A stretch of 32,050 nucleotides of DNA, taken from a virus. Positions 1,342 through 24,586 of this stretch are shown here, piece by piece. The notes below the pieces were generated by a model. It worked only from the letters and a program-made list of their open reading frames with translations, had not been told where the DNA came from and did no database searches. Position 1 is the stretch's first letter; every line of letters starts with the position of its first letter. A program made the translations under genes and the position numbers. The DNA lies in the IMG/VR virus record IMGVR_UViG_3300017917_000861, positions 1 through 32,050 of that record. One strand, given 5' to 3'.

Positions 1342-2001
1342 ATGGGTATTATGAAGGGACTAAAGGCCATGGAACAGGCTATTGACAAGCCCCGCGCAAC
1401 AGAAAATACAGGAGCCAAGGTCCGTTGGCTTAAGATGGAGGATGGTCAGGCTGTTAAGGTTCGTTTCGTCAATGAACTTGATTCAGACTCACCAAACTAC
1501 AGCGAGGATCGTGATCTAGCAATTGTTGTTGCAGAGCACACAAATCCAAAGGACTACAAGCGTAAGGCAGTATGTACTCAGGATAGCGAGGGACGCTGCT
1601 TTGGGTGTGAGATGGCTCGTAAGGAGCCTAAGAGTGGTTGGCGTGCAAGACTACGCTTTTATACCAACCTTCTAGTAGATGACGGCCTAGAAGATCCATA
1701 TGTTGCCGTGTGGTCACAGGGTGTAAGCAAGCAGTCTGCCTTTAACAATGTTCGTGAATACGCCCTTGAGACAGGCAGCGTAAGCAACCTCAATTGGAAG
1801 TTGAAGCGTCAGGGCACTGGCACAGACACTACATACGTTCTTCTTCCAAGCGCACCAGATACAGAGCCATTTGACTGGAACGGCACAGAGGCGTATAATC
1901 TAGAGAAGGTTGTGCGCGAACTACCTTATTCAGAGCAAGAGGCCTTCTATCTAGGTTTCGATGGTCCAGTAGGAAGTTCATCATCCAACATTGATTGGTA
2001 A
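1342..2001 (+). CDS. Single-stranded DNA-binding protein, T4 gp32-like
   Basis: This 219-residue protein resembles the gp32 type of phage SSB rather than bacterial Ssb. A zinc site of the H-C-C-C kind is visible at H66, C78, C86 and C89, inside an OB-fold-like region rich in beta strands. The C-terminal tail is Ser-rich and ends in DW, in the position where SSBs carry their partner-binding tail. AGGAG lies five bases before ATG 1342; a second ATG at 1351 is possible. It sits between primase and polymerase, as expected for a replisome component. The codons look richer in G/C-ending forms than those of its neighbours (many AAG, CGT, GGC), which suggests high expression. Confidence 0.85.
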   Translation: MGIMKGLKAMEQAIDKPRATENTGAKVRWLKMEDGQAVKVRFVNELDSDSPNYSEDRDLAIVVAEHTNPKDYKRKAVCTQDSEGRCFGCEMARKEPKSGWRARLRFYTNLLVDDGLEDPYVAVWSQGVSKQSAFNNVREYALETGSVSNLNWKLKRQGTGTDTTYVLLPSAPDTEPFDWNGTEAYNLEKVVRELPYSEQEAFYLGFDGPVGSSSSNIDW

Positions 2002-2008
2002 TTAGGCT

Positions 2009-2119
2009 GGTAGGGGAGGGTACGCAATTCGTGCGTGGAATTCCGTGATAACTTAGGATGGTTATAGTTAATTCGGCTGAGTTACGGTTGAGATTCCATA
2101 CAGAAGTCCCTCCCCTACC
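2009..2119 (+). ncRNA. Structured RNA element closed by a 12-bp perfect helix
   Basis: GGTAGGGGAGGG (2009-2020) is perfectly complementary to CCCTCCCCTACC (2108-2119). The 87 bases between them fold further: ACGCA/TGCGT hairpin (2022-2036); GGAAT 2037-2041 with ATTCC 2093-2097; CCGT 2043-2046 with ACGG 2084-2087; ATAAC/GTTAT hairpin (2048-2065); and a weaker hairpin at 2069-2084 that competes with the CCGT/ACGG pairing. There is no U-run after the helix, so it is not a plain intrinsic terminator. It fills nearly all of the gap between ssb and dnaE and ends before the dnaE ribosome binding site. It could be a processed small RNA, an RNase III site or a cis-regulator. I do not recognise the family. 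Confidence 0.6.
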
Positions 2120-10743: not shown

Positions 10744-10793
10744 AGCAGGGTAGGAAACCTAATTAATTAAGGTGGCAACATTCCTACCCTGCT
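10744..10793 (+). terminator. 13-bp perfect stem-loop after the lysozyme-like gene
   Basis: AGCAGGGTAGGAA (10744-10756) and TTCCTACCCTGCT (10781-10793) form a 13-bp perfect stem. The 24-base loop contains its own ACCT/AGGT mini-stem around AATTAATTA. No T-run follows, so termination would be atypical; an RNase III site or an mRNA 3' stabiliser fits as well. The extended -10 of the terminase operon starts three bases after the stem. Confidence 0.6.
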
Positions 10794-10795
10794 GC

Positions 10796-10804
10796 TGCTA
10801 TAAT
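10796..10804 (+). promoter_or_regulatory. Extended -10 promoter of the terminase genes
   Basis: TGCTATAAT (10796-10804) is an extended -10, with no good -35. Transcription would start near 10811 and leave about 15 bases with AAAGGA before ATG 10826. A start here also rules out the upstream TTG at 10772 for the small terminase. Confidence 0.55.
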
Positions 10805-10825
10805 TGTTACCTACAAAGGAATTCC

Positions 10826-13330: not shown

Positions 13331-13405
13331 GCGGCGGTAGCCTAGTCTGGTTTTGGCACCAGTCTTATAAACTGGGAATCGTGGGTTCAAATCCCACCCG
13401 CCGTA
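13331..13405 (+). tRNA. tRNA-Ile (anticodon TAT)
   Basis: The cloverleaf has acceptor GCGGCGG with CCGCCGT (one G-T pair), anticodon stem CCAGT/ACTGG with loop CTTATAA giving TAT at 13366-13368, and T arm GTGGG-TTCAAAT-CCCAC. The discriminator is A, and CCA is not encoded. It reads AUA directly. Bacteria usually decode AUA with a lysidine-modified CAT anticodon, so the phage supplies a different solution for its AUA-rich genes. Confidence 0.9.
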
Positions 13406-13414
13406 CAAACTAAG

Positions 13415-13423
13415 TGGTATAAT
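13415..13423 (+). promoter_or_regulatory. Extended -10 promoter, leaderless start downstream
   Basis: TGGTATAAT (13415-13423) lies ten bases after tRNA-Ile. ATG 13430 is six bases beyond it. No -35 is apparent in the tRNA sequence upstream. Confidence 0.6.
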
Positions 13424-13429
13424 TTTATT

Positions 13430-13558
13430 ATGGAAAATATTGTTGAGCCAGAAGTTACTCCAATTAATAATGAGGGCACAGAGATAATCGTCACAGGAGT
13501 TGGCGCAGAAGATTATACTGTTGCAGATGAAAGTGAAATAGATTGGAGCAAACTATAA
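13430..13558 (+). CDS. Small acidic protein (42 aa)
   Basis: ATG 13430 lies six bases after TATAAT and has no ribosome binding site. The frame ends at TAA 13556-13558, which overlaps the endolysin ATG. The 42-residue product is acidic (MENIVEPEVTPINN ... ESEIDWSKL) and lacks known motifs. It may mainly bring ribosomes to the endolysin gene by coupling, since the endolysin ATG has only weak Shine-Dalgarno sequence. It may also be a small structural or regulatory protein. Confidence 0.62.
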   Translation: MENIVEPEVTPINNEGTEIIVTGVGAEDYTVADESEIDWSKL

Positions 13559-14292
13559 TGCCAAGCCCAAAACTATGTGCCGCAGGAATAACACTAAGAG
13601 ATCAGGTAAATAAGAGATGGCCTGACAGAGATAAGGCCAGCGATGGTTGGATTGGTGATGCTGCTCATGCAGCAAGAGATGGTTGGGGAACAAATGGTCG
13701 TGGCTCATATCATAATCCAGACCCTAATGGCATTGTTCACGCTATCGATTTAGATGAAGACTTTTTTGGAAAAGGTAAGGGTGGACAAAAGGCCGCAATG
13801 GAATTTGCTCAGCAATTGGCAACCTACTGTCGTGAAGGAAAAGATGGTGGAAGAATTGCTCACATTGTTTATGAAGACAAGGTAGCATCAGGAACTGCCC
13901 AAAATTGGCATTTCCGTGGATCAGGATATGGTCACACTCATCACATACATATTAGTTTTACAAATAGAGCAGATAACGATGGAAGCAAGTTTATGCTTCC
14001 AATTTTTGAAACAGGCAACAATAATCCAAAGCCGCCTGCTCCAAAGCCACAAAATAAGATTCCAGCATATCCAGGAAGATCTAAATTAGTTTTCAGACAA
14101 AGAAGCGAAGATGTAAGAGAAATGCAAAAGCAACTTATTAAAAGAGGATTCGCTATTCCAAACGGACCAACTGGATTTTATGGAGATCAAACAGTTTCAG
14201 CAGTAAAAAAGTTTTATGCAAGCATCGGAAAGAAAAAAGATGGAAAAACATTAGATCCAGCAGCATGGAATCAGTTATGGAGTGGTAAATAA
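13558..14292 (+). CDS. Endolysin: M15-like peptidase plus peptidoglycan-binding domain
   Basis: From ATG 13558 the product is 244 residues without a signal peptide. The N-terminal domain has zinc-peptidase residues of the M15 (D-Ala-D-Ala carboxypeptidase/VanY-like) type: H61 and D64 in VHAIDLD and H129/H131 in HTHHIHIS. A proline-rich linker (PKPPAPKPQ) leads to a peptidoglycan-binding domain at about 175-244 (DVREMQKQLIKRGF, TGFYGDQTVSAVKKF). It should cut stem-peptide cross-links at lysis. Without a secretion signal it needs a holin; the membrane protein at 13163 is the nearest candidate. The upstream in-frame TTG 13543 lies inside the previous gene. Confidence 0.88.
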   Translation: MPSPKLCAAGITLRDQVNKRWPDRDKASDGWIGDAAHAARDGWGTNGRGSYHNPDPNGIVHAIDLDEDFFGKGKGGQKAAMEFAQQLATYCREGKDGGRIAHIVYEDKVASGTAQNWHFRGSGYGHTHHIHISFTNRADNDGSKFMLPIFETGNNNPKPPAPKPQNKIPAYPGRSKLVFRQRSEDVREMQKQLIKRGFAIPNGPTGFYGDQTVSAVKKFYASIGKKKDGKTLDPAAWNQLWSGK

Positions 14293-15185
14293 TGCCATGG
14301 CAAATTAGACAAGGAACCGACCAGTGCTCTGGGTATGGAGTCTTTAAAGAAGGAACAAATGAACTTGAGGGCTGCCACACAACAAGAGAGGCAGCAGAGA
14401 GCCAAATGGCTGCACTATATGCATCAGAACCAAGTGCAGCAAAGGCAATAACTAATGAGTTTGAAAAGTATCGCGGAGATTTATATGCGAGATTAACGCA
14501 AGAAGAAAAGGCTTTTCATGATGCACTTTTAAGAATTGCAGAAGAATATGGTCCATTTGATCAAGGAACATCAAGCATCTGGGTTGGTTATGTTGAGGGA
14601 GAAGAAAATGAAAATGCAGAAATTGGTGTAATGTGTGCCAACTGTTCTTTTTTCAATCCACAAAATCAAGCCTGCGCACTTCTTTCTTATAAGGTGCAGC
14701 CCACAGCATTATGCCGACTTGCTGCAATTCCAGATGGATATGTTATTCCAAAGGTCGAAGAAGAAGAGGAAGAAGAGGAAGAGTCTTCTGAAGAAATGAT
14801 GGAAGATTCTCTAAAGCAGTATGGAGGATGTGGCTGCCCAACTTGTAAGGCTCTAAATATTGCATGTGAGGATTGTCCAGTATGCGCCCTTAGAATGGGG
14901 AAGGCAGAAGGAATTAGAGTTGGACAAATGGTTTCTTGGAACTCTAGCGGGGGAAGAGCAGAGGGAAGAGTAAGAAGAGTTATTAGAGATGGATCATATA
15001 ATGTTCCAGATTCTGATTTTACAATTAATGGAACTCAAGATAATCCAGCAGTTGTAATTGAGGTCTATCGTGACGGTAAACCAACAGGAAGAATGGTTGG
15101 ACATAGAATGAATACTCTATCTGCAAAGAAGAATACTTGGTCTGGAATGTTTGATCCAAGGCTTGGATTGATGAAGCGTGGCTGA
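14292..15185 (+). CDS. Multidomain phage protein with C-terminal HVA1/Tudor-like domain
   Basis: The 297-residue protein has three parts. Residues 1-45 (CSGYGVFKEGTNELEGCH, QMAALYASE) resemble a short module often attached to phage prohead proteases. Residues 100-155 hold a Cys-containing module (CANCSFF, CALLS, ALCRL). A Glu-rich run follows (residues 156-172), then a Cys-rich segment (CGCPTC, CEDCPVC). The C-terminus (about 207-275, GQMVSWNSSGGRAEGRVRRV ... RMVGHRMNTLS) matches the HVA1/DUF2945 Tudor-like family. The role is unknown. It overlaps the endolysin by one base and the next gene by eight. Confidence 0.75.
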   Translation: MPWQIRQGTDQCSGYGVFKEGTNELEGCHTTREAAESQMAALYASEPSAAKAITNEFEKYRGDLYARLTQEEKAFHDALLRIAEEYGPFDQGTSSIWVGYVEGEENENAEIGVMCANCSFFNPQNQACALLSYKVQPTALCRLAAIPDGYVIPKVEEEEEEEEESSEEMMEDSLKQYGGCGCPTCKALNIACEDCPVCALRMGKAEGIRVGQMVSWNSSGGRAEGRVRRVIRDGSYNVPDSDFTINGTQDNPAVVIEVYRDGKPTGRMVGHRMNTLSAKKNTWSGMFDPRLGLMKRG

Positions 15186-15555
15186 AACATATCGTCCGAC
15201 CGCTGGCATGAGGGCGGCTGCTCGTCGTGCCATAAAATGGAAAGAAGAGGGAAAGGCCACTGGTGCTGGCACTCCAGTAGGATGGACTAGGGCTAGACAG
15301 TTGGTAAATGGTGAAGCGCTTTCTCTAGATACTGTAAAAAGAATGTACTCTTTCTTTTCTCGTCACGAAGTAGACAAAAAGGGAAAAGACTTCTATAATA
15401 CTTCTAATCCATCTAATGGACGTATTATGTGGGACGCATGGGGTGGAGATGCAGGATTTTCTTGGTCAAGAAGAATTGTTGAAAGAGAGAATGCAAAAAA
15501 AGTTTGGCAAGGTTCAGCATTTTATATAAATGTTGACAAACGTCATAACTCCTGA
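15178..15555 (+). CDS. Conserved phage head-module-type domain protein
   Basis: This 125-residue protein starts at GTG 15178. It contains a pattern I know from C-terminal parts of actinophage head or protease proteins: GMRAAARRAIKWKEEG, WTRARQL, LSLDTVKRMYSFFSRHEVDK and WDAWGGDAGFSW. Here it stands alone. The exact function is not known; a DNA- or protein-binding helical domain is likely. It follows the Tudor-like protein by an overlap, and its 3' end carries the -35 element of the next promoter. Confidence 0.72.
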   Translation: MAETYRPTAGMRAAARRAIKWKEEGKATGAGTPVGWTRARQLVNGEALSLDTVKRMYSFFSRHEVDKKGKDFYNTSNPSNGRIMWDAWGGDAGFSWSRRIVERENAKKVWQGSAFYINVDKRHNS

Positions 15556-15561
15556 TAAAAT
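15533..15561 (+). promoter_or_regulatory. Consensus promoter
   Basis: TTGACA (15533-15538) and TGATAAAAT (-10 TAAAAT at 15556-15561) are spaced by 17 bases; the -35 lies inside the previous gene. A leader with AAGGAG (15568-15573) precedes GTG 15582, so this promoter feeds a leadered mRNA. Confidence 0.75.
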
Positions 15562-15581
15562 CTACATAAGGAGTTGGTAGT

Positions 15582-15920
15582 GTGTTTCAATTCTTGCTTG
15601 CAATAAATCCATCAATTTCTTTTTTATGGGCTATTCTGGCAGATACAATAAAATATGTTCGTGTTAGTGAACTAGATAGAACATTTGACAGTATAGTAAG
15701 AGATGTAGAAGAAGAGATGGAAGAAGAGGAAGAGCAAGGAATAAGCGTTGCTTATGTAGAAGACAAGGCATACTGGGTTCTTAATAACACATTTTATCAA
15801 GCAGATATTGTAGATGGAGAGATTGATAGAGAGTCTTCAAGACCAATTGATCCATTTAAAATGTCAAGCAAAGATATAATGAAAATGCTTTTTATATTGG
15901 ATAATCTAACAGAAGGATAG
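15582..15920 (+). CDS. Hypothetical protein with hydrophobic N-terminus and acidic run
   Basis: This 112-residue protein starts at GTG 15582, eight bases after AAGGAG. Residues 1-22 (MFQFLLAINPSISFLWAILA) are hydrophobic and may anchor it in the membrane. A Glu-rich stretch (VEEEMEEEEEQG, about 42-53) is followed by a strand-rich domain ending in DIMKMLFILDNLTEG. I recognise no family. It is the first gene of an operon that also holds the dCMP deaminase and WhiB. Confidence 0.7.
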   Translation: MFQFLLAINPSISFLWAILADTIKYVRVSELDRTFDSIVRDVEEEMEEEEEQGISVAYVEDKAYWVLNNTFYQADIVDGEIDRESSRPIDPFKMSSKDIMKMLFILDNLTEG

Positions 15921-15922
15921 TA

Positions 15923-16267
15923 ATGAATATCGTTGTTCAGGGAACGAAGGAGTTCTCAGACTATAATGTATTTTTGCGTGCCATGGGCGTTGCGCTTTCT
16001 GATATTACAGATGGCGAGTTTAACGTATACTCCGCTGGACCCGCACAAATTAATTCTTTCACTGCTGAATTCTGTAATCTATCAGAGAACAGTTTAAAGC
16101 AAAGAGGAATTAAGACTAGATTTTATCGTGTTCCACCTTCATTTGTTGAAGAGAATATGAATAGGTTTCAGTATTTTGCTTTTTTGTCAACCCCAAATCA
16201 GCGTCCGTCGAAACTGGCTTCATCTGCTGAACTAAGCGGAGTTGAAGTCGGAATCTTCCGATACTAG
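15923..16267 (+). CDS. Hypothetical protein, Rossmann/SLOG-like
   Basis: The 114-residue protein begins with a strand and a loop typical of small nucleotide-binding Rossmann proteins (MNIVVQGTKEFSDYNVFLRAM). A strand-glycine turn follows (FNVYSAGPAQINSF), and then a charged segment (LKQRGIKTRFYRVPPSF). The layout resembles DUF2493/SLOG-type proteins, thought to bind nucleotide ligands, but the match is weak. It starts two bases after the upstream stop and is coupled to it. It could sense a nucleotide signal; this is inference. Confidence 0.62.
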   Translation: MNIVVQGTKEFSDYNVFLRAMGVALSDITDGEFNVYSAGPAQINSFTAEFCNLSENSLKQRGIKTRFYRVPPSFVEENMNRFQYFAFLSTPNQRPSKLASSAELSGVEVGIFRY

Positions 16268-16275
16268 GAGATAAT

Positions 16276-16653
16276 GTGCTGAGCAAGAAGGACGAAGCAT
16301 TCCTTACTGTTGCCCGATACTTTGCAAAGAAGTCCTCTGCAAGAAACACACATGGGGCCGTAATTGTAAAGGGCGGGAGAGTAATAGGAACGGGATATAA
16401 CAGGAACAGGAATCATCCAACAGTTGTATCACCAGAACACATCAAGACTGAATGTAGCACTCACGCAGAAGAATCTGCCATAAGGGATGCTGGTTATGAT
16501 GTAAAGAATGCAGTAATTTATGTTGCAAGAGTTAACAAGCATGGTGAAGATAGAAATAGTCGCCCATGCCCAAGGTGCCATGCTCTTATCAAGGAGCATG
16601 GAATTAAAAGAATAATTTACACAACCGAACCAAGGAGAGAAAGTGTTAGTTAG
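16276..16653 (+). CDS. dCMP/cytidine deaminase-family protein
   Basis: This 125-residue zinc deaminase has the HAE motif (H63-A-E65 in STHAEESA) and PCPRC (C98, C101). The N-terminal strand pair (NTHGAVIVKGGRVIGTGYN) is typical of the family. Phage members convert dCMP to dUMP to feed thymidylate synthesis; RNA or free-nucleoside activity cannot be ruled out. Translation begins at GTG 16276, seven to eight bases after AGGAG. The neighbouring genes do not include thymidylate synthase. Confidence 0.85.
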   Translation: MLSKKDEAFLTVARYFAKKSSARNTHGAVIVKGGRVIGTGYNRNRNHPTVVSPEHIKTECSTHAEESAIRDAGYDVKNAVIYVARVNKHGEDRNSRPCPRCHALIKEHGIKRIIYTTEPRRESVS

Positions 16654-16864
16654 CAGCCTACTAAAAATGGAGCAAATTGTTGATTTCCGTCCAGATCTAG
16701 AGTGGGATGGGTGGAATGTCGTCCACTACAAGAAGAAGGATTCGGCACAATTTGATAAAGATGGCGCATTTAAAAATGGTCAGTGGTACAAGAAGACGGT
16801 ATATCCAGTAACAGAAAGTGGTTGGACAATACCAAATTATATGGGGATTGATGATGACCTATAA
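16643..16864 (+). CDS. Hypothetical small protein
   Basis: This 73-residue protein starts at GTG 16643, with AGGAGA four bases upstream, overlapping the deaminase by 11 bases. The sequence is rich in aromatics and lysine (WDGWNVVHYKKKDS, FKNGQWYKKTVYPVTESGW). I recall similar YKKDGAFKNGQW-like repeats in small actinophage proteins of unknown role. No catalytic or metal-binding motif is seen. It overlaps the WhiB gene by 11 bases, forming a coupled set of three. Confidence 0.7.
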   Translation: MLVSSLLKMEQIVDFRPDLEWDGWNVVHYKKKDSAQFDKDGAFKNGQWYKKTVYPVTESGWTIPNYMGIDDDL

Positions 16865-17141
16865 ATGGAAAGACAATGCGAAATGCTTAGGCATGGATAC
16901 AAACATATTTTTTGACAAATATGAAGAAGACGCAGCGATGGCTGCAAGTATCGATGCCCTGTGTAGGGACTGCACAGTAAATAGAGAGTGTTTTTCGGTT
17001 GGAGTATCAAATAAGGAATGGGGAGTGTGGGGTGGTGTTTATTTAAAAGAGGGAAATATAGACAAGGAGTTCAACCAGCATAAGAGTAAACAGGCTTGGT
17101 TTGATACTTGGCAATCTTTAACAATGGAGAAAGAAAGATGA
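16854..17141 (+). CDS. whiB: WhiB-family Fe-S transcription regulator
   Basis: From ATG 16854 the protein has 95 residues. It has the four WhiB cysteines, C11, C37, C40 and C46 (KCLGMD, CRDC, ECF), and the turn motif GVWGG at 57-61 followed by a positively charged end. WhiB-like proteins are nearly confined to actinobacteria and their phages. They bind 4Fe-4S and contact the principal sigma factor. This one may redirect host transcription, including at the extended -10 promoters of this phage (inference). GGGGA lies six bases upstream of this ATG; ATG 16851 is too close. Confidence 0.92.
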   Translation: MTYKWKDNAKCLGMDTNIFFDKYEEDAAMAASIDALCRDCTVNRECFSVGVSNKEWGVWGGVYLKEGNIDKEFNQHKSKQAWFDTWQSLTMEKER

Positions 17142-17401
17142 TTTATACCCCAAAGATGAAGCAAGAAGTTCATAAAATTCCAGTGCCATCTGACTTTGTT
17201 ATGGATGTTGTAGAGTATGACATGTATCCGCCATATATTGGACTGAGATTTTATGAAAGTCATTGGAGGCACATGAATGATACAGAAAGACTCAGGTGTA
17301 TTAAGTATCTAAAAAAGATAAAGACAATAATTGAGTCTCATGGAGTTCCTGTCACTCTTGATCCAGTATATGATGTTCCTGGGGGACAAAAACTGGGATG
17401 A
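17138..17401 (+). CDS. Hypothetical protein downstream of WhiB
   Basis: This 87-residue protein starts at ATG 17138, in an ATGA overlap with whiB, after GGAGAAAG. It has an N-terminal strand segment (PSDFVMDVVEYDMYPPYIGLRFYE) and a helical centre (DTERLRCIKYLKKIKTIIESHG), ending in VYDVPGGQ. The family is not recognised. Tight coupling to WhiB suggests co-expression and possibly a partner role, which is inference. An upstream ATG in frame at 17108 lies inside whiB and is not preferred. Confidence 0.7.
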   Translation: MIYTPKMKQEVHKIPVPSDFVMDVVEYDMYPPYIGLRFYESHWRHMNDTERLRCIKYLKKIKTIIESHGVPVTLDPVYDVPGGQKLG

Positions 17402-18354
17402 GTATTTTTGTGTCTATTGTTGCTTATCGTGATACTGAACTACTTCCTACAGTAAAAAGTATTTTGCAAAACGCTAATAGACCAGAAGAAATTAATTTTG
17501 GAATAGTTTCACAGGATTTAGATAAAGATCATCCAGATCTATCATTTATTAAAAATTTAAAATATCTAAAAATAGATTTTCGTGAAGCCAAGGGGGTAGG
17601 CTATGCAAGAAAACTCGCCATGGAAATGTACGATGGAGAATCATTTTATTTGCAACTAGACTCCCACATGCGAGCAGCAGAAGGTTGGGATACTAAATTA
17701 AAAAATATGTATGACGTTACAAAAGAAATAGAAAACAACAGCAAGATAATTCTTAGTCAATATCCTGCGCCATATGAAATCCATACTAATGGCAAAGAAC
17801 ATTTTATTAAAGGACATAGGGAACTTTGGACGGAGCCAACTTGGTCTAAAGTTCATAATAGAGACAACGGTTCTTGGTCAGCAGCAAGAGAAAAAATTAA
17901 AGATCTTTCCAAGCCACATCCCTCTCATACAGTTCTAGCAGGGTATCTTTTTGCCGATGGCAGATTTGTAGAAGAAGTCCCATATGATGAAAGAATAACG
18001 TTTATGGGAGAAGAGTTATGTATAGCGATAAGGGCATACACCCGTGGGTGGAAAATATATGCTCCAAACGAAATGCTTTTTTGGCACTTTTACAAGAGAA
18101 AAAACAGTCCAAAGATATGGAATCAGATGGAAGACATGATGAGGCCATTAAAATGGATTGAACTTGAAATGCAGTCTAAAAGAGTACAAAAGAAAATTCT
18201 TCTTGGAGAAGAGCAGGGTATTTTTGGCATCGGAGACTATGAAAAATATCTAGAATATCAAGATCTGATTGGGATCAATTTTTCTGAATTTTATAATAAT
18301 GTTATGCACAAAAAGATTAATAGCGCGGTAAAATCACAAGAAATAGTTTTCTAG
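17398..18354 (+). CDS. Glycosyltransferase, GT60 (hydroxyproline GlcNAc-transferase)-like
   Basis: The 318-residue protein starts with SIFVSIVAYRDTELLPTVKS, the opening of a GT-A glycosyltransferase. The metal-binding motif is LDSHMR at 87-92, as in the GT60 family, whose studied members add GlcNAc to hydroxyproline of Skp1 in eukaryotes. A second conserved block lies at about 180-240 (AGYLFADGRFVEEVPYD, FMGEELCIAIR, FWHFYKRK). Bacterial members of this family exist but their acceptors are unknown. It opens a cassette with two more glycosyltransferases and a methyltransferase. It overlaps the gene before it by four bases. Confidence 0.82.
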   Translation: MSIFVSIVAYRDTELLPTVKSILQNANRPEEINFGIVSQDLDKDHPDLSFIKNLKYLKIDFREAKGVGYARKLAMEMYDGESFYLQLDSHMRAAEGWDTKLKNMYDVTKEIENNSKIILSQYPAPYEIHTNGKEHFIKGHRELWTEPTWSKVHNRDNGSWSAAREKIKDLSKPHPSHTVLAGYLFADGRFVEEVPYDERITFMGEELCIAIRAYTRGWKIYAPNEMLFWHFYKRKNSPKIWNQMEDMMRPLKWIELEMQSKRVQKKILLGEEQGIFGIGDYEKYLEYQDLIGINFSEFYNNVMHKKINSAVKSQEIVF

Positions 18355-18362
18355 TTCTATAG

Positions 18363-18368
18363 TATAAT
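18363..18368 (+). promoter_or_regulatory. -10 promoter with leaderless GTG start
   Basis: TATAAT (18363-18368) in the 20-base gap after the GT60-like gene is followed six bases later by GTG 18375. No ribosome binding site and no -35 are visible. Confidence 0.55.
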
Positions 18369-18374
18369 TCTTTC

Positions 18375-19076
18375 GTGGCTAAATTTGGAATGATGTGGGT
18401 AGGAAACTCATTAAGCAAAATTCAAGAAATATCCTTATCCTCTTTTCTATATCACGGTCATGAAGTTTCTATGTTTGTGTATGATAAAAAACTCCCAGTA
18501 CCAAGAGGTATTATTAAATTAGACGCAAATGAAATAGTTCTAGAATCAGAAATATTTACTGTTAAAAATACCTACGCTGCATTTTCTGATGTATTTAGAT
18601 ATCAGATGATAAATAAAACAGGACTCCCGTGGGTAGACGCAGATACAATTTGTGTTTCTAGTGAATGGAACTTTAGAGATAATATTTATGCTGGTTATGA
18701 AAATAAAACAGTTGTCGGTGGAGTTCTTAGTCTCCCACAAGAACACCCAGCACTAAAATATATGATACAAAGATCATCAAGTTTTAATAAAGAAAAAATT
18801 AATTGGGTAGAAATTGGACCAGCATTAGTAAATGAAACCTTTAGAAAATTTAGGCTGATGAAATATGTATATAGTGAAGAAACGTTTTGTGGAATACACT
18901 ATTCTAAATGGAGAATGTTGTGGGAGTCGCAGCACTTAGAAGAAATTAAAAATTTAGAAAAAAAATCCCACAGCATATCTGCATACAACTCTATGGCAAC
19001 ATTTGCTGGAATAGATAAAAATAGCCTACCAAGCGGCTCAGCAATGGAATATTTTTATAGAAAGTTTGTAAAATGA
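18375..19076 (+). CDS. DxD glycosyltransferase, GT32-like
   Basis: The 233-residue protein begins IWVG-like (MMWVGNSLSKIQEISLSSFLYHGHEV), the opening of GT32/capsular sugar transferases. It carries the metal-binding DxD motif D88-A-D90 in LPWVDADTIC, preceded by AAFSDVFRYQM, a conserved helix of these enzymes. It should transfer a sugar from a nucleotide donor; donor and acceptor are unknown. The GTG start is predicted to be leaderless. It overlaps the methyltransferase by four bases. Confidence 0.82.
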   Translation: MAKFGMMWVGNSLSKIQEISLSSFLYHGHEVSMFVYDKKLPVPRGIIKLDANEIVLESEIFTVKNTYAAFSDVFRYQMINKTGLPWVDADTICVSSEWNFRDNIYAGYENKTVVGGVLSLPQEHPALKYMIQRSSSFNKEKINWVEIGPALVNETFRKFRLMKYVYSEETFCGIHYSKWRMLWESQHLEEIKNLEKKSHSISAYNSMATFAGIDKNSLPSGSAMEYFYRKFVK

Positions 19077-19738
19077 AAAATAATACAATTATTCTTAAGT
19101 ACAAGAAGTACCATAATCCTCTTTCTATTCTTACAAAAAAGTACGGTAGTGATAAGGGATCTCCGTTTGATGATGATATGTGTGAATCTGGATGGAAGAT
19201 GAGTCTTTACGCAGATTTTTATCATATGCTTTTTTGGAACAGAAGAGATAAAGTCAAAAATGTATTAGAAGTTGGGATAGGAACGAATAATCCTTCTCTA
19301 CCATCAAGCATGACTGCAAATGGTCGGCCAGGAGCCTCGCTCAGAGCGTGGAGAGATTATTTTCCAAAAGCAATGATCTATGGAGCAGATGTTGATAGAG
19401 ATATTCTTTTTGAGGAAGACAGGATTAAAACATTCTATGTAGATCAAACAGATAAATTTAGTGTGGCAGAATTAATTTCTAATATTGATAGGCAGTTTGA
19501 TTTTATTATTGATGACGGTCTTCACGAAGCCCATGCACAAATTACTTTATTAGAAGCAATTTATTACAAATTAAAAATTGGCGGGATCTATATCATAGAA
19601 GATTGTATAAACACCTACAGAGAAGTAAAGAATCATTTAGATGGAAATGGTTATGAATATATAGATTTAGATTTCACCAATGATTCTAATTATTGCTTTG
19701 TTATTTTTAAAAGCAAGGAGCCATGGGATGAACATTGA
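19073..19738 (+). CDS. SAM-dependent methyltransferase, macrocin/sugar O-methyltransferase-like
   Basis: This 221-residue class I methyltransferase has motif I VLEVGIGTN (64-72) and later IYGADVD and FDFIIDDGLHEAH. The N-terminal YGSDKG and the GASLRAWRDYFPKA segment are typical of MycE-like sugar O-methyltransferases. IDDGxH may bind a metal. It lies between two glycosyltransferases with overlaps on both sides, so a glycan methylated on a sugar hydroxyl is the simplest product. Such capping often ends a glycan chain. Confidence 0.82.
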   Translation: MKNNTIILKYKKYHNPLSILTKKYGSDKGSPFDDDMCESGWKMSLYADFYHMLFWNRRDKVKNVLEVGIGTNNPSLPSSMTANGRPGASLRAWRDYFPKAMIYGADVDRDILFEEDRIKTFYVDQTDKFSVAELISNIDRQFDFIIDDGLHEAHAQITLLEAIYYKLKIGGIYIIEDCINTYREVKNHLDGNGYEYIDLDFTNDSNYCFVIFKSKEPWDEH

Positions 19739-20327
19739 TTTAAGAGATATTAAAACATTTTATATTAATTTAGATAGACATAAAGAAAAAAACGAGTCAG
19801 TAGTGAAGCAGATAGAGTTATCTGGAATCAAAGATTTTACAAGAGTATCTGGTGTAAATATGCCAAGAAACAAGGAGGCGGGTTGCGCTTCATCTCACTA
19901 CAATATTCTTTCTGAGGCCACTGCTCCTACATTAATATTAGAAGATGACTGCGCCATTTATAAAAATAATCCAATAATAAATGTTCCAGATAATGCAGAT
20001 GCCCTTTATGTCGGTCTTTCCAGATGGGGCTTTAAGAATAATGTTTCTAAAATAAACAACTATTCATACAGTCCTTGTAAAGGATACAAAGATATTTACA
20101 AAATAGACGGTATGCTTGCAACTCATGCAATCCTTTATCTATCAGAAGAATACATAGATATTTCTAGAAGGGTAGCAAAGCACTGTGCAGCAAACTCCAT
20201 ACATGTTGATGTAGGATTTACTGGTATTCATAAATACTATAATGTTTATGCCATGGGGCAGCCACTTTTTTATCAGAGCACAAATGAGAAATCAACCCAC
20301 ATGTCTTTACGCGGTTCTAGAAGATAA
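19728..20327 (+). CDS. Glycosyltransferase family 25-like
   Basis: From ATG 19728 (AAGGAG seven bases upstream) the product is 199 residues with the GT25 signatures: TFYINLDRHKEK at 10-21, GCASSHYNIL at 52-61 and LILEDDCA at 69-76. GT25 includes bacterial lipooligosaccharide galactosyltransferases and collagen hydroxylysine galactosyltransferases. It closes the first glycosylation cassette. A terminator-like hairpin overlaps its stop codon region. Donor and acceptor cannot be read from sequence. Confidence 0.85.
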   Translation: MNIDLRDIKTFYINLDRHKEKNESVVKQIELSGIKDFTRVSGVNMPRNKEAGCASSHYNILSEATAPTLILEDDCAIYKNNPIINVPDNADALYVGLSRWGFKNNVSKINNYSYSPCKGYKDIYKIDGMLATHAILYLSEEYIDISRRVAKHCAANSIHVDVGFTGIHKYYNVYAMGQPLFYQSTNEKSTHMSLRGSRR

Positions 20328-20328
20328 T

Positions 20329-20357
20329 ATATGACTAAAGTCATATCAATTTTGTTT
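20329..20357 (+). terminator. Weak intrinsic terminator after the glycosylation cassette
   Basis: ATATGAC (20329-20335), loop TAAA and GTCATAT (20340-20346) form a 7-bp perfect hairpin followed by CAATTTTGTTT. The stem is AT-rich and the T tract is broken, so efficiency may be modest. The tail overlaps the next -35. Confidence 0.55.
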
Positions 20358-20384
20358 GACTATTAAACAAATTCCTGATACGAT
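20356..20384 (+). promoter_or_regulatory. Promoter with extended -10
   Basis: TTGACT (20356-20361) and TGATACGAT (-10 TACGAT at 20379-20384) are spaced by 17 bases. A leader with a near-perfect AAGGAGG precedes ATG 20415. Confidence 0.6.
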
Positions 20385-20414
20385 ATATATATCAACCCAA
20401 AAGGAGGAATTTGT

Positions 20415-20567
20415 ATGAAGGCTTTAGGCCGTCTATTAGCAGGTCTTTTTGATACCGCCACAAGCGATGGATTAAAGATCTACCGTGAGTGGGATCGATT
20501 AAGAACAGAGGCACTCACTCCTGCACATAGGTCAGAAATCGATGCAATCTTTTCTCGTCATGTATAA
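20415..20567 (+). CDS. Small protein with EIDAIFSRHV C-terminus (50 aa)
   Basis: ATG 20415 has AAGGAGG eight bases upstream and its own promoter. The product is 50 residues: a short hydrophobic N-terminus (MKALGRLLAGLF) and a helical, charged rest ending in EIDAIFSRHV. I recall similar short proteins with a LTPAxRxEIDAIFSR ending in actinobacteria and their phages, of unknown role. The stop codon is directly followed by the next TTGACA. Confidence 0.72.
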   Translation: MKALGRLLAGLFDTATSDGLKIYREWDRLRTEALTPAHRSEIDAIFSRHV

Positions 20568-20597
20568 TTGACAACCATCCACTCCATACGATATAAT
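20568..20597 (+). promoter_or_regulatory. Strong promoter (TTGACA, 18 bases, TATAAT)
   Basis: TTGACA (20568-20573) follows the previous stop codon directly. TATAAT lies at 20592-20597. Both elements are consensus. The -10 lies at the centre of a long palindrome described separately. GTG 20604 is six bases downstream. Confidence 0.8.
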
Positions 20598-20610
20598 TTT
20601 GGAGTGGATG
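20576..20610 (+). promoter_or_regulatory. 11-bp inverted repeat enclosing the -10 (operator candidate)
   Basis: CATCCACTCCA (20576-20586) and TGGAGTGGATG (20600-20610) are perfect reverse complements, separated by 13 bases that hold the -10 hexamer. The half-site centres are 24 bases apart, just over two helical turns, so a dimer could bind one DNA face and close the promoter. The expected transcript start lies in the right arm, so the repeat cannot form a hairpin in the RNA and must act as DNA. Confidence 0.7.
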
Positions 20611-20699
20611 AGTCATATGATGAGGACTATCTATCTTCCTATTATGAAGGAGTAATTTATGTTGGATGCGAGGGGTATTCCGACGAGGGAATGTCCTAA
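20604..20699 (+). CDS. Possible leaderless 31-residue acidic peptide
   Basis: GTG 20604 is at the predicted transcription start, six bases after TATAAT. It opens a 31-residue frame rich in Asp, Glu and Tyr (MDESYDEDYLSSYYEGV, then YVGCEGYSDEGMS). It overlaps the next gene by 41 bases, a weakness. The spacing matches other leaderless genes of this window. A competing 15-residue frame from ATG 20608 seems less likely. No function can be proposed. Confidence 0.42.
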   Translation: MDESYDEDYLSSYYEGVIYVGCEGYSDEGMS

Positions 20700-20838
20700 T
20701 TGTGCCTCTACTCTTTTTACTATTCAGGCAACCTTTGATGATAATTATGAGATAGGGATGTATCTTCTAAGCGCAGAATGCGCAATGTGTCACACCCTAG
20801 TAACTGCTCCAACCCCATTAGACTTGGTAGATCAATGA
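20659..20838 (+). CDS. Small zinc-ribbon protein (59 aa)
   Basis: ATG 20659 has GAAGGAG seven to eight bases upstream. The 59-residue product has C12-x2-C15 and C41-x2-C44 (CPNC ... CAMC), a zinc ribbon, with an acidic stretch FDDNYEIGMYLLSAE between them and a Pro-rich end (TAPTPLDL). Similar YEIGxYLL ribbons occur in actinophages, role unknown. TGA overlaps the next ATG. Confidence 0.78.
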   Translation: MLDARGIPTRECPNCASTLFTIQATFDDNYEIGMYLLSAECAMCHTLVTAPTPLDLVDQ

Positions 20839-21068
20839 TAGAGTTTTATGCAAAAATTGTTCCGATGGAAAAGGGGGCATTCAAATACTGTGTCACTATC
20901 TGGAAATCAAAAGATGGCATTGAAAGTATTTGGAAAGTTAAAAAGTTTTTAAGAATAAATAGTGCTAGATCTTGGGCAGTAAAAGAAATATCGAAACTTA
21001 TTGCAGAAGATAGCATTGTAATGTTTTTGAAAGAAAGCGATATATTAAGGAGAAAATGGAATGACTAA
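20835..21068 (+). CDS. Hypothetical protein (77 aa)
   Basis: This starts at ATG 20835, overlapping the zinc-ribbon stop (ATGA). The basic product begins MIEFYAKIVPMEKG, with strands and aromatic residues (YCVTIWKSKDGIESIWKVKKF), then a helix (NSARSWAVKEISKLIAED) and a Lys/Arg-rich tail. The beta-beta-alpha order is like small double-stranded-RNA- or DNA-binding folds, but no family is recognised. It overlaps the next gene by eight bases. Confidence 0.68.
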   Translation: MIEFYAKIVPMEKGAFKYCVTIWKSKDGIESIWKVKKFLRINSARSWAVKEISKLIAEDSIVMFLKESDILRRKWND

Positions 21069-21249
21069 CGAAGAACTTTTACAGAAGGTTCTAAACTCAA
21101 CAATTGAGCGATTTGGCAAGCAGGCACTCAGTTACGAAGCAGAAATTGCAAACCTAAATTCACAGATTATTATTCTTAATAGTCAAATTGAAGAGATCAA
21201 GCAACTAACTAAGGAAAAGTCTGCAAAGATTACTCCAGTAAAGGAGTGA
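21061..21249 (+). CDS. Small coiled-coil protein (62 aa)
   Basis: ATG 21061 follows AAGGAGAAAA. Residues 20-52 form a clear leucine/isoleucine heptad coiled coil (ALSYEAEIANLNSQIIILNSQ), and the tail is basic. Such short coiled-coil proteins are common in actinophage replication and regulation regions, without a known role. Oligomer formation is expected. Its stop overlaps the extended -10 of the next gene. Confidence 0.72.
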   Translation: MTNEELLQKVLNSTIERFGKQALSYEAEIANLNSQIIILNSQIEEIKQLTKEKSAKITPVKE

Positions 21250-21255
21250 TATAAT
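21247..21255 (+). promoter_or_regulatory. Extended -10 promoter, leaderless start downstream
   Basis: TGATATAAT (21247-21255) overlaps the stop codon of the coiled-coil gene. ATG 21262 is six bases downstream. An AAGGAG at 21241 is 15 bases from the ATG, too far for normal use. Confidence 0.62.
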
Positions 21256-21261
21256 AATATT

Positions 21262-21552
21262 ATGTATAGATCAATACCAGAACCAAATATGGAAAAGCGA
21301 GACTATAGCACTGCTGCTCGCCGTAGAATGGCAGCCTCAGGACAGGCAATGCCAGACGGCTCTTTTCCAATTGCCAACCGCACTGATTTGAGAAATGCCA
21401 TTCAGTCAGTTGGTCGTGCAAGTAACTATGAGGCTGCTCGTAGACACATTATCTCTCGTGCTAGAGCCTTGGGTGCAATGGACATGCTTCCAGAAGACTG
21501 GAAGAAGTCAACCAAGTCTATGTGGTCTAGTGTGCTTGCACCAAAATGGTAG
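21262..21552 (+). CDS. Protein with the PDGSFPI / GRA-ARRHI phage domain
   Basis: The 96-residue protein contains ARRRMAASGQAMPDGSFPI, DLRNAIQSVGRA and ARRHIISRARALG, followed by LPEDW. I know this pattern as a module in actinophage head and protease proteins and as a stand-alone protein; the biochemical role is unknown. The start is the leaderless ATG 21262. It may be functionally linked to the 15178-15555 protein, which carries another module of the same class of phage proteins. Confidence 0.78.
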   Translation: MYRSIPEPNMEKRDYSTAARRRMAASGQAMPDGSFPIANRTDLRNAIQSVGRASNYEAARRHIISRARALGAMDMLPEDWKKSTKSMWSSVLAPKW

Positions 21553-21704
21553 ACATATTTGAGGACGACAGTCAATATGTTTGTATCTCCCATAATTTTA
21601 TAGTTCCTTGTCCAATGGGTGATAACCATCTGGTATCTAATTGGCCATCAGATGTTGCTAAAGTTCTTGACATTATTAACCATCAAGAATATAATAATCA
21701 TTAA
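21546..21704 (+). CDS. Hypothetical small protein (52 aa)
   Basis: ATG 21546 lies within the last codons of the previous gene, and the frame ends at TAA 21702-21704, giving 52 acidic residues (MVDIFEDDSQYVCISHNFIVPCPMGD ... LDIINHQEYNNH in outline). There is no clear ribosome binding site, so it would depend on coupling. It fills the gap before the next gene. C13, H16, C22 and H28 might bind a metal. The function is unknown. Confidence 0.5.
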   Translation: MVDIFEDDSQYVCISHNFIVPCPMGDNHLVSNWPSDVAKVLDIINHQEYNNH

Positions 21705-21724
21705 CTACTATCGTTAGGCAATCA

Positions 21725-22219
21725 ATGCAAACATTTGTTCCATATGCAGACTTTGCTAAGTCTGCCGCTGTACTAGACAGCAAGCGACTCAATAAGCAAC
21801 TTCTTGAGGGCCGTCAGATTTATGATATTCTGCGCTCTCAACGTACAAAGGGCGCTTGGGTTAACCATCCTGCGGTCAAGATGTGGCGTAATCATCATAC
21901 AGCACTTTACACATATCTTATTGCTATTAAGAACGAGTGTGTTCGCCGTGGCATTCAGACAGAAAAGAACTGGAATGCTATTCAGCATATGCGCAAGTTT
22001 GATTACGGCACAGGAATTAATCTCGTCATGCCACCTTGGTGGGGTGATGAGCGTGTTCATGAGTCTCATCGTAATAACCTATATGTAAAAGATTCAGAGT
22101 TTTATGCACAGTTTGCTAATGCTAACCGTATTGCGTGCTGTGACAAATGCAATTACTTTTGGCCTACTCATACAACATACTATAATGCAGAATTTGGAGG
22201 ATATGTAAATGTCGGATAA
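21725..22219 (+). CDS. Pyrimidine-dimer DNA glycosylase / endonuclease V-like
   Basis: The 164-residue protein opens with MQTFVPYADFAKSAAVLDSKRLNKQLLEGRQI in outline. This matches the pyrimidine-dimer glycosylase (T4 DenV/Pyr_excise) group, in which R and E residues of this N-terminal helix act in catalysis. WVNHPAVKMWRNHHTALYTYL follows the family pattern. It would cut DNA at UV photoproducts, which suits a phage living in sunlit water. A weak ribosome binding site (TTAGG) precedes ATG 21725. The C-terminus has CCDKC, a possible metal site. Confidence 0.82.
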   Translation: MQTFVPYADFAKSAAVLDSKRLNKQLLEGRQIYDILRSQRTKGAWVNHPAVKMWRNHHTALYTYLIAIKNECVRRGIQTEKNWNAIQHMRKFDYGTGINLVMPPWWGDERVHESHRNNLYVKDSEFYAQFANANRIACCDKCNYFWPTHTTYYNAEFGGYVNVG

Positions 22220-22403
22220 GCAACTCACAGAAGAGCAAGAAAAGGCTTTGCGAGATCTTGAGAGCGCAAGCCAAAATCTCAGGAGAGCAGCGGGAGGAAA
22301 GGTTGGAGAGTCTGCTGAAAAGGCATATGGTCTTGCCTATACAAGATGCTATCAACTTGGTCTAAAGCAGTATCCACCGACTGTTTGCAAGACAACTCGT
22401 TGA
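22209..22403 (+). CDS. Small helical protein (64 aa)
   Basis: ATG 22209 is well placed after GGAGGA. The product has a charged amphipathic helix (LTEEQEKALRDLESASQNLRRAA), a glycine turn and a second helix (SAEKAYGLAYTRCYQLG), ending in PPTVCKTTR. This reads as a helical hairpin. The family is not recognised. It overlaps the DNA glycosylase by 11 bases and is followed by the promoter of an HNH gene. Confidence 0.68.
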   Translation: MSDKQLTEEQEKALRDLESASQNLRRAAGGKVGESAEKAYGLAYTRCYQLGLKQYPPTVCKTTR

Positions 22404-22421
22404 TAAATGCCTTCCCTATTA

Positions 22422-22430
22422 TGATATAAT
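22422..22430 (+). promoter_or_regulatory. Extended -10 promoter of the HNH gene
   Basis: TGATATAAT (22422-22430), with a possible TTGATA at 22400-22405 (spacing 19), precedes ATG 22438 by seven bases, so the HNH gene is probably leaderless. Short arms CTTCC (22411-22415) and GGAAG (22432-22436) flank the -10. Confidence 0.6.
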
Positions 22431-22437
22431 TGGAAGT

Positions 22438-22863
22438 ATGAAAACCTGTGGTGCTTGCAAAAGAGAATTAGACATGGGTAGTTTTGCGAGTAATCCAACA
22501 AAACCAGATGGAAAACAATGGCAATGCAAAGACTGTCAAGCAGTATATCGCAAGAAACATTATGAAAAAAATAAACAAAAATATATAGGTAAAGCAAAAA
22601 GCAATGCAGAAGAATATAAAAAGCAATATTATGAATGGCTAAAAACTCAGTCTTGTGTAGATTGTGGAAACACAGACATAAGAGTATTAGAGCAAGATCA
22701 TATTTCAGATAAATCTTTTAATATTTCTTCTAAAGTTGGTACAATAACGCTAGAATCACTTATGCCAGAATTGCAAAAGTGTGAAACAGTATGTGCCAAT
22801 TGCCATAGAATAAGAACGGTGGAGCGCGGTGGATGGATGCGCTCCTACGCGGCATTAGTATAA
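22438..22863 (+). CDS. HNH endonuclease with N-terminal zinc knuckle
   Basis: The 141-residue protein has an N-terminal zinc site (CGACKRELD, then CKDCQAVYRKKHYEKNK), common in HNH proteins of actinophages. An HNH domain follows: CVDCG, EQDHIS and CANCHRIRT. It is probably a free-standing homing endonuclease with its own leaderless promoter. Its last 15 bases, including the stop, lie inside tRNA-Gly. This fits an element inserted next to a tRNA gene, and processing of the tRNA would cut the mRNA end. Confidence 0.85.
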   Translation: MKTCGACKRELDMGSFASNPTKPDGKQWQCKDCQAVYRKKHYEKNKQKYIGKAKSNAEEYKKQYYEWLKTQSCVDCGNTDIRVLEQDHISDKSFNISSKVGTITLESLMPELQKCETVCANCHRIRTVERGGWMRSYAALV

Positions 22864-22920
22864 AAGTTATTATTCCTGCCTTCCAAGCAGGAGAAGTCGG
22901 GGCAGTACCGACATGCCGCT
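22849..22920 (+). tRNA. Divergent tRNA-Gly (anticodon TCC)
   Basis: Acceptor GCGGCAT pairs fully with ATGCCGC. Anticodon stem CCTGC/GCAGG holds loop CTTCCAA (TCC at 22882-22884). T stem GTCGG/CCGAC is perfect. However, the T loop is GGCAGTA instead of TTCRANN, the D loop (AAAAGTT) lacks the GG pair, and the D stem is weak. The usual D-loop/T-loop contact is therefore missing. It may be a degraded gene, a tRNA with a special fold, or one used outside normal translation. The discriminator is T. Confidence 0.72.
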
Positions 22921-22941
22921 CGCTTGGGAAGTTGATGTTTT

Positions 22942-23014
22942 CTGCGTGTGGCGCAACGGACAGCGCAAGTGGTTTCTACCCACTAGGTTGGGGGTTCGAA
23001 TCCCTCCACGCAGA
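22942..23014 (+). tRNA. tRNA-Arg (anticodon TCT)
   Basis: Acceptor CTGCGTG/CACGCAG, D stem GCGC/GCGC, anticodon stem AGTGG/CCACT with loop TTTCTAC (TCT at 22975-22977) and T arm GGGGG-TTCGAAT-CCCTC complete a normal cloverleaf. It reads AGA, the common arginine codon of these AT-rich genes. CCA is not encoded. Confidence 0.92.
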
Positions 23015-23032
23015 CGTAAAGAAAGGATATTT

Positions 23033-24121
23033 GTGTCATCAGTAGGATTTCTTACAGTAGATTGGGCTAGAGGAACAAGCCCACTGGAGCCCAATGGCTG
23101 TGCTTGGTATAGGTGTTATTTGCCAATGCTTGAGTTAGAAAAACTAGATTGGCATACGAATATTGGTTTCCCAGAATTTCATAAAGAGCACGGGTTTGGC
23201 GTATTTAGAAGTTCTGAAGAAATAATTTTTGGTTGGGATGTTGTAGTCTTAAAACTAATTATGCTTAAAAGCGTTTCAGAAATTTTAGATAACTATGAAA
23301 GAATAAATGGTCAAAAGGTTGTGGTAGACGTTGATGATTTTTTTGAGGGTCTACAGCCAAGCAACTACGCCTATGGTTCTACTGATCCAGAAAAGCATCC
23401 AGATAATAATAGACAACATTACATTGACATTATTCATAAAGCAGACGCAGTAATTACCTCTACACCATTTCTTTATAATTATTACAAAAATGAAGTTGGT
23501 CTGCCAAATGTATATCTAATTCGTAATGGGATAGATCTACCAAGATGGAAGCAGAAGAATGATCACTCTAGATACCTTCCAACATTTGGATGGGTTGGTG
23601 CCACTCCTTGGAGGAGCAATGACCTTGAAACAATGCAGCCATTCTTTGGAGAGTTTTTAGAAAAGAATAGACTTCCATTCCATCATGCTGGTCATATTAA
23701 AGAAGGCGTTTGGGCAGAGCACCAGTTAGGAATCCCTTCATCTGTAAAGGTTACGCATAGCCTTAGAATGCAGATAACAAAATATCCTGAAATGTTTAGG
23801 AAAATTGATGTTGGAATTGTTCCGCTCAATAACATTCCTTTCAATCATGCAAAAAGCACTATCAAAGGTTTAGAGTATACTGCGGCAGGAATTCCATTCA
23901 TTGCCTCATACAGCCCTGAATATGAGTTTTTTGCGGAGGACGGAGTAGGAAGATGTGCTCATTCTGAAGAAGAATGGCTAGAATATTTAGGAATGATGGT
24001 TGATCCTAAAATAAGAAAAGAAGAAATAGAAAGAAATATAGAGAACGTAAAACAACGTCACACAATGGAAGTTCGTGGTCGTGAATGGGATACGGTTCTA
24101 AAAGAAATTATAAACAGTTAA
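23033..24121 (+). CDS. GT-B glycosyltransferase (GT4-like)
   Basis: From GTG 23033 (GAAAGGA six bases upstream) the product is 362 residues. It starts SVGFLTVDWARGTSPLEPNGCAWYR in outline and has a two-domain layout. An N-terminal half ends in VVVDVDDFFEG. A C-terminal Rossmann half has LPTFGWVGATPWRSNDLE, IDVGIVPLNN, NHAKSTIKGLEYTAAGIPFIA and EEWLEYL, which are GT4-type donor-binding features. Earlier in-frame starts lie in tRNA sequence. The stop is directly followed by tRNA-Tyr. It may extend the glycan begun by the 17398-20327 cassette. Confidence 0.85.
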   Translation: MSSVGFLTVDWARGTSPLEPNGCAWYRCYLPMLELEKLDWHTNIGFPEFHKEHGFGVFRSSEEIIFGWDVVVLKLIMLKSVSEILDNYERINGQKVVVDVDDFFEGLQPSNYAYGSTDPEKHPDNNRQHYIDIIHKADAVITSTPFLYNYYKNEVGLPNVYLIRNGIDLPRWKQKNDHSRYLPTFGWVGATPWRSNDLETMQPFFGEFLEKNRLPFHHAGHIKEGVWAEHQLGIPSSVKVTHSLRMQITKYPEMFRKIDVGIVPLNNIPFNHAKSTIKGLEYTAAGIPFIASYSPEYEFFAEDGVGRCAHSEEEWLEYLGMMVDPKIRKEEIERNIENVKQRHTMEVRGREWDTVLKEIINS

Positions 24122-24201
24122 GCGGAATAGTCCCCAAGGTGGGGAAGCGGTCTGTAAAACCGTCGCCTCTGGCATGGTTGGTTCGATTCCAACATTCCGC
24201 A
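24122..24201 (+). tRNA. tRNA-Tyr (anticodon GTA)
   Basis: Acceptor GCGGAAT/ATTCCGC, anticodon stem GCGGT/ACCGT with loop CTGTAAA (GTA at 24154-24156), a long variable region of class II type and T arm GTTGG-TTCGATT-CCAAC are all present. It begins at the base after the upstream stop codon. The discriminator is A. Confidence 0.92.
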
Positions 24202-24202
24202 C

Positions 24203-24231
24203 TTGACAACTACATAAAGCAAGCGTATAAT
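24203..24231 (+). promoter_or_regulatory. Perfect consensus promoter after tRNA-Tyr
   Basis: TTGACA (24203-24208), 17 bases, TATAAT (24226-24231). It starts two bases after the tRNA. A leader with AAGGAG (24251-24256) follows, so the next gene is leadered and likely strongly expressed. Confidence 0.85.
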
Positions 24232-24263
24232 ATTTATATCAACTCAAACAAAGGAGATATAAT

Positions 24264-24482
24264 ATGGATACGATGGTAGAAGAGAAATCAGATACTCTTA
24301 ATGCTAATGATCGTTGTGATGCATGTGGGGCACAGGCCTTTGTTTGGGTAAATGGGGTAAGTGGAGATCTTCTTTTCTGCCGCCATCATTTTATGAAGCA
24401 TGAAGACAAGTTGCGTGAGTACGCATTTGAGGTTATTGATGAGACTTGGAAGATCAACGATAAGAGTGAATCTTCCGCATGA
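24264..24482 (+). CDS. DUF7455-like zinc-binding protein
   Basis: The 72-residue protein contains DRCDACGAQAFVWV (16-29) and LLFCRHHFMKHEDKL (36-50). Two Cys pairs and histidines fit the actinobacterial DUF7455 group. Members are encoded by actinobacteria and by many of their phages. The role is unknown; some lie near sigma factors. ATG 24264 has AAGGAG and a perfect promoter, so the protein is likely abundant. The rest is an acidic helix. Confidence 0.82.
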   Translation: MDTMVEEKSDTLNANDRCDACGAQAFVWVNGVSGDLLFCRHHFMKHEDKLREYAFEVIDETWKINDKSESSA

Positions 24483-24580: not shown

Positions 24581-24586
24581 TATAAT
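24557..24586 (+). promoter_or_regulatory. Promoter of the Asp-Thr-Glu tRNA cluster
   Basis: TTGACA (24557-24562), 18 bases, TGATATAAT with -10 at 24581-24586. tRNA-Asp begins ten bases after the -10, so the primary transcript has almost no 5' leader before the tRNA. Confidence 0.8.

Follow-up and report, generated by a model that had tools for sequence, protein, structure and literature searches.

The window analysed here, the 32,050-base virus record IMGVR_UViG_3300017917_000861 (positions 1 to 32,050), comes from an uncultivated actinophage-like virus and carries at its left end genes for a primase, a single-strand DNA-binding protein (ssb) and a family C DNA polymerase (dnaE), with a MazG-like and a RecA/UvsX-like gene listed after dnaE. 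The primase–ssb–dnaE order is common to the window and to Stanwilliamsviridae phages such as Yaboi, and Faust has an HNH gene between ssb and dnaE; a comparison of the ssb protein with GTDB genomes found no relative. A preliminary description, made from the sequence alone, had placed an unrecognised structured RNA between the two replication genes, ending before the dnaE ribosome-binding site. Its placement was correct: the ssb–dnaE gap spans 2002–2140, and the closing stem of the element, P1, ends at 2119, before the GAAAGGA ribosome-binding site (Shine-Dalgarno sequence at about 2128–2134) and the TTG start at 2141, leaving 21 nt between the end of the element and the dnaE start codon. The dnaE start is apparently TTG here and in three relatives (L015, L017 and L042), and ATG or GTG in the others. 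The features of the locus are as follows.

389–1333: primase, at the left end of the window
1342–2001, + strand: ssb, phage single-strand DNA-binding protein, the gene 5′ of the element (phrog_9721, E 9e-44; gene order as in Stanwilliamsviridae phages)
2009–2020, + strand: 5′ arm of P1, the closing, terminator-like stem; perfect pairing with 2108–2119, with both-side changes in homologues
2021–2023, + strand: bulged U, then AC pairing with GU at 2106–2107, the P1 extension (13-member alignment)
2035–2044, + strand: 5′ side of P3 (GUGGAAUUCC), with its partner GAGAUUCCAU at about 2091–2100; average pair probability about 0.3–0.8, one-sided changes only
2051–2070, + strand: near-invariant core ACTTAGGATGGTTATAGTTA, comprising the P4 5′ strand, apical P5 and the UAGU loop (alignments A1, A3 and A6)
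2087–2098, + strand: conserved GGTTGAGATTCC, bulge plus 3′ side of P3 (alignment A3)
2102–2107, + strand: conserved AGAAGT just 5′ of the P1 3′ arm, invariant in alignment A3
2108–2119, + strand: 3′ arm of P1; perfect pairing with 2009–2020, with the same compensatory changes
2120–2127, + strand: tail 3′ of the stem (TTACTACT), of weak U content in the window and U-rich in L002, L029, L030 and L223
2141–5410, + strand: dnaE, family C DNA polymerase alpha subunit with a PHP domain, the gene 3′ of the element (Pfam PF07733, PF17657 and PF02811; phrog_405)

P1 consists of GGTAGGGGAGGG (2009–2020) perfectly paired with CCCTCCCCTACC (2108–2119), a 12-bp helix around 87 nt, just as first described. 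The accompanying judgement that such a pairing is very unlikely to arise by chance also held, P1 being the sole 12-bp GC-rich perfect inverted repeat counted by script in the window (at least 8 G+C, spacing 3–150), against a mean of 0.01 expected from order-1 Markov sequences. Folding against shuffled controls and a search for covariation in homologous phages, the two sequence checks that had been proposed, both came out in favour of the stem. The whole 111-nt element folds at −48.9 kcal/mol compared with −28.8 kcal/mol for shuffles (z = −5.8), and in 13 distinct homologues the closing stem shows compensatory, both-side changes at 10 of 14 pairs with 98.9% of cells paired, in an alignment that was fitted to the model, so that the counts lean towards it. 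None of 500 shuffles attained the overall covariation score, which is lost when the register is shifted. In the alignment the pairing of the P1 arms is visible by eye (GGUAGGGGAGGG/CCCUCCCCUACC, GGUAGGAGGGGC/GCCUCUCCUACC, GGUAGGAGGGUA/UGCCCUCCUACC and GGUGGGGGAGAG/CUCUCCCCCACC), and the C–G pair of the P1 extension is present in all 13 aligned members, its second pair being A–U or G–U in nine of the ten that have letters there. P1 contains five G.U cells and no A.C cells, the pattern expected for RNA of the + strand. The closing stem is an RNA pairing maintained by compensatory change.

The interior is distinguished by its sequence. UAGGRUGGUURUAGUUA is nearly invariant across the homologues of the element, and the core ACTTAGGATGGTTATAGTTA occurs once in the window. 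Interior identity reaches 97% at an identity of about 45% for the fourfold-degenerate sites in the genes on either side: L017 and L042 share 84 of 87 interior bases at 45% identity of the ssb and dnaE fourfold sites, and the window and L015 share 80 of 93 aligned columns at 50%, figures for single pairs that recombination could inflate. The interior exceeded the fourfold sites in all 45 pairs compared, its identity falling to about 0.5–0.6 where one of the most divergent members (L003, L004 and L030/L033) is part of the pair. These comparisons indicate that the interior is under selection and far more conserved than synonymous sites.

The several perfect short helices and multi-branched shape originally read into the interior are not well supported. 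Folded alone, the interior gives z = −1.85 in the window, +0.1 to −0.9 in five of six other members and −3.5 in L003, and it contains a single both-side change. Averaged pair probabilities yield one long irregular arm rather than several branches, running from P1 through the bulged U, the AC/GU pairing, a large internal loop, P3, an asymmetric GGUU bulge, P4 and P5 to the UAGU apical loop; the one additional branch of the window (ACGCA/UGCGU, directly after P1) is missing in most homologues. RNAalifold returned other interior pairings for alignments A1 and A5, so the single arm is a tentative fold. Unpaired motifs that hardly vary point to a specific protein or small-molecule partner and speak against both a mere spacer and a simple RNase III site. 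Several other candidate features were discarded: a small leader peptide (ATGGTTRTAGTTA...), whose frames by eye end at differing places and which has no spaced Shine-Dalgarno sequence before it; a promoter inside the interior, where the second position of TRTAGT is poor in most members and no −35 partner was seen by inspection; a resemblance of AGAAGU to the hairpin ribozyme, the partner loop NGUC of which is by inspection not conserved; and, inside ssb, a promoter-like TTGACT-N17-TATAAT (1871–1899) that is not conserved.

With dnaE and ssb as queries, IMG/VR yielded 160 loci, from which the ssb–dnaE gaps were extracted. A covariance model built from seven sequences matched, at 45 bits or more, 19 virus contigs including the window, with one copy per contig, always after ssb; the matches include sequences outside model building (L003, L004, L017, L020, L042 and L223). 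A partial copy lies at the start of L021, and weak matches in L001 and L009 correspond to the short hairpins there. Scans with the core pattern returned from IMG/VR only ssb–dnaE sites and chance matches in other sequence, and from 84,980 GTDB genomes nothing. Among 4227 Rfam families only tRNAs were found in the window at the gathering threshold, and at permissive thresholds the top weak match of the element was OxyS, at 11.3 bits against the 75 needed. A riboswitch, as an aptamer upstream of several metabolically related genes, was rejected on the single genomic context and the lack of any other true match in IMG/VR or GTDB. The element is a new, strongly conserved and previously uncatalogued RNA, present in no catalogue searched here, and the label of an unrecognised structured RNA was apt.

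The extracted loci differ in what lies between ssb and dnaE. Some have the long element and others a short GC-rich hairpin; in further loci a gene is inserted behind a short hairpin, or a TTGACA promoter-like sequence extends into a hairpin, and in more distant phages there is almost no gap. In one clade of the dnaE tree a hairpin or the long element immediately follows ssb in all 31 members; the long form is patchy, with 13 of the 31 and several changes on the tree, and L008/L009 and L001/L004, both sister pairs with good support, each combine a long and a short form with the GC-rich stem kept in both. The stem is therefore the constant part and the interior the optional one. The preliminary description had named absence of the gap from close relatives, with no effect on the flanking genes, as evidence against its reading, and this is half the case, in that the interior is absent from the close relatives L001 and L009 and is thus dispensable, and the stem is not absent. 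In the nearest relatives without the element the slot is filled by a plain hairpin rich in GC, and in the cultivated relatives Faust and Yaboi ssb is followed by terminator-like GC hairpins whose tails are T-rich. L033 and L034 have a 735-bp gap in which the element is followed by a gene for an HNH endonuclease, equipped with a promoter-like sequence of its own, before dnaE begins; here the element shows no change relative to L030 (interior 88 of 89 the same between L030 and L033). Because it stays with ssb when dnaE is displaced, the element belongs to ssb and is not a dnaE leader. The stem belongs to ssb and occupies a terminator slot.

Other contents of this slot were recorded alongside. 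Streptomyces phage Faust has an HNH gene (gene 60) at the position that one takes in L033 and L034. Between ssb and dnaE, L005, L010–L013, L025, L058, L064 and L079 encode a conserved protein of about 230–244 aa, uncharacterised and ending ...YKK.FWQRKK..; the one copy scanned, that of L010, had no Pfam match. In some relatives an uncharacterised gene is positioned after the short hairpin. Promoter-like TTGACA-N17-TAGAAT directly follows the ssb stop in L019 (732–806), L022, L023, L024, L026, L014, L031 and L035. In these gaps the terminator-like hairpin contains the −10, which nests the promoter in the upstream gene's terminator, so the dnaE transcript would begin in the loop, without the 5′ arm. 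A CTCACGA-containing loop, perhaps a preferred terminator loop, recurs in short slot hairpins (L008:440–490, L036, L013 and L031). Elsewhere, GC-rich perfect hairpins (for example AGCAGGGTAGGAA/TTCCTACCCTGCT, 13 bp) are followed at once by TGCTATAAT, which resembles an extended −10 promoter, at 10744–10815 of the window, L217:2087–2130 and L219:4910–4970, an arrangement conserved between the window and G013. ARAGORN predicted nine tRNA genes at 13331–27230 of the window, most of them clustered at 22.9–27.2 kb; ARAGORN and Rfam differ on one call each (Tyr at 24122; 22849–22920).

Measured against an intrinsic (Rho-independent) terminator, the element has the GC-rich, perfect, selected stem at a gene end (12 bp, always directly after ssb) and lacks the short loop of about 3–8 nt, its own being 87 nt in the window and about 77–87 nt in homologues. 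The tail contains four U in eight positions in the window and seven in eight in L002, L029 and L030, and TTTTTT follows the stem in L223; the reported lack of a terminator U-run is thus right for the window (TTACTACT) but not for these four relatives. A simple terminator scan of the window did not list the element. The terminator-like hairpins of Faust and Yaboi share with it the slot, directly after the ssb stop codon and before dnaE or the HNH gene, and the GC-rich perfect stem, but their loops measure about 4 nt and their tails are T-rich, where the element has an 87-nt conserved loop domain and an often weak tail. The L17 downstream element (Rfam RF01708) likewise puts a structured RNA domain into the 3′ region of a gene, in its case a bacterial one; its authors called this placement highly unusual in bacteria (PMC2864571). 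It belongs to another gene and host, and its model does not match the element. The STAXI motif also lies near ssb genes, but consists of tandem pseudoknots (PMC2864571), whereas the element is single-copy and without an Rfam match.

Taken together, we suggest that the element is a terminator or attenuator stem at the 3′ end of ssb whose loop is a conserved recognition domain and which sets read-through into dnaE, a reading to which we assign a probability of about 0.5. On this view the ssb message would end in the element, a structured 3′ terminus whose 12-bp GC-rich stem would be the transcript-boundary stem that these phages retain between ssb and dnaE; in this subgroup 87 nt with a nearly unvarying recognition sequence make up the loop of that stem. 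Transcription of ssb would partly halt at the stem, or the transcript would be trimmed back to it; the fraction reading through would supply dnaE, leaving SSB in excess over the polymerase, and binding of a protein or small molecule to the conserved domain could tune formation of the stem. No conserved promoter was found in the 3′ end of ssb among the homologues, so in the long form dnaE mRNA probably arises by read-through, and the stem would then be an attenuator and not a full stop. We infer termination or attenuation at the stem itself from P1 covariation, the hairpin or element present in the slot throughout the clade, the terminator-like hairpins of Faust and Yaboi, the U-rich tails and the unchanged element beside the HNH insertion. 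Against this stand the 87-nt loop and the window's tail of four U in eight, far from a textbook intrinsic terminator, and the ordinary hairpin directly upstream of the element in L008; a plain terminator would, moreover, leave the strong conservation of the interior without explanation. A riboregulator of the SSB to polymerase ratio, as originally suggested, remains the best-fitting role, recast here as termination or attenuation at the ssb 3′ end.

The foremost alternative, in our view an unlikely one, is a translational operator of dnaE, in which translation of dnaE would be repressed by DnaE or SSB bound to the conserved domain, in the manner of T4 gp43 and gp32. Both of these T4 proteins, the DNA polymerase and the SSB, attach to structured parts of the mRNAs that encode them and autoregulate through upstream RNA structures (PMC3014915), the operators of genes 32 and 43 being, like the element, structured RNAs attached to phage SSB and DNA polymerase genes; the short distance to the dnaE start codon and loop and bulge sequences that resemble a recognition site fit this reading. 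T4 operators, however, lie directly upstream of the controlled gene and reach its ribosome-binding site, and the T4 polymerase is of family B, not C. The element follows ssb rather than preceding it, leaves the dnaE ribosome-binding site uncovered, is unchanged where the 735-bp gap with the HNH gene parts it from dnaE, and has no interior in close relatives whose proteins are the same.

Of the other roles proposed at the outset, neither a processed small RNA nor an RNase III site gained specific support. An RNase III-type site, ranking next and likewise improbable, would let the ssb and dnaE messages decay separately after cleavage of the irregular hairpin. T7 early genes are processed by RNase III at long, irregular, intercistronic hairpins, which the element resembles in its internal loops, its position and its compensated stem; the enzyme requires little sequence identity, yet the interior is nearly invariant, and in many relatives a short hairpin is all that the slot contains. 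About as doubtful is a trans-acting small RNA from the ssb 3′ untranslated region with the stem as its terminator: the terminator-like 3′ stem, the conserved single-stranded motifs and the single copy per genome would suit it, but the longest exact complement in the G013 contig is 12 nt, no longer than for random sequences, and an antisense role in trans was rejected on that count. We consider very improbable a feature of the DNA, such as a replication or primase start site formed as a single-strand hairpin, despite its location among replication genes and the suggestion of a DNA role for STAXI, a motif near Ssb genes (PMC2864571), given the G.U and absent A.C pairs of P1, the exact fit between stop codon and ribosome-binding site, a GC skew that does not switch at the site in contig G013 (74 kb) and the unrelated short hairpins that take its place in close relatives.

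The sequence between ssb and dnaE is a new, strongly conserved RNA element with a defined slot at the ssb 3′ end, which probably limits the share of the ssb message that continues into the DNA polymerase gene, and the natural versions with and without the interior in sister phages make its role directly testable. A further, tentative step is that the attenuator is regulated, the loop of the ssb terminator being a sensor for a replication protein or a metabolite that sets the amount of polymerase message relative to SSB. If so, it would be a terminator whose loop is a sensor, within a phage replication module; sensing of this kind would show how these phages balance SSB and polymerase, and would give an example of a regulatory domain accommodated in the loop of a terminator.
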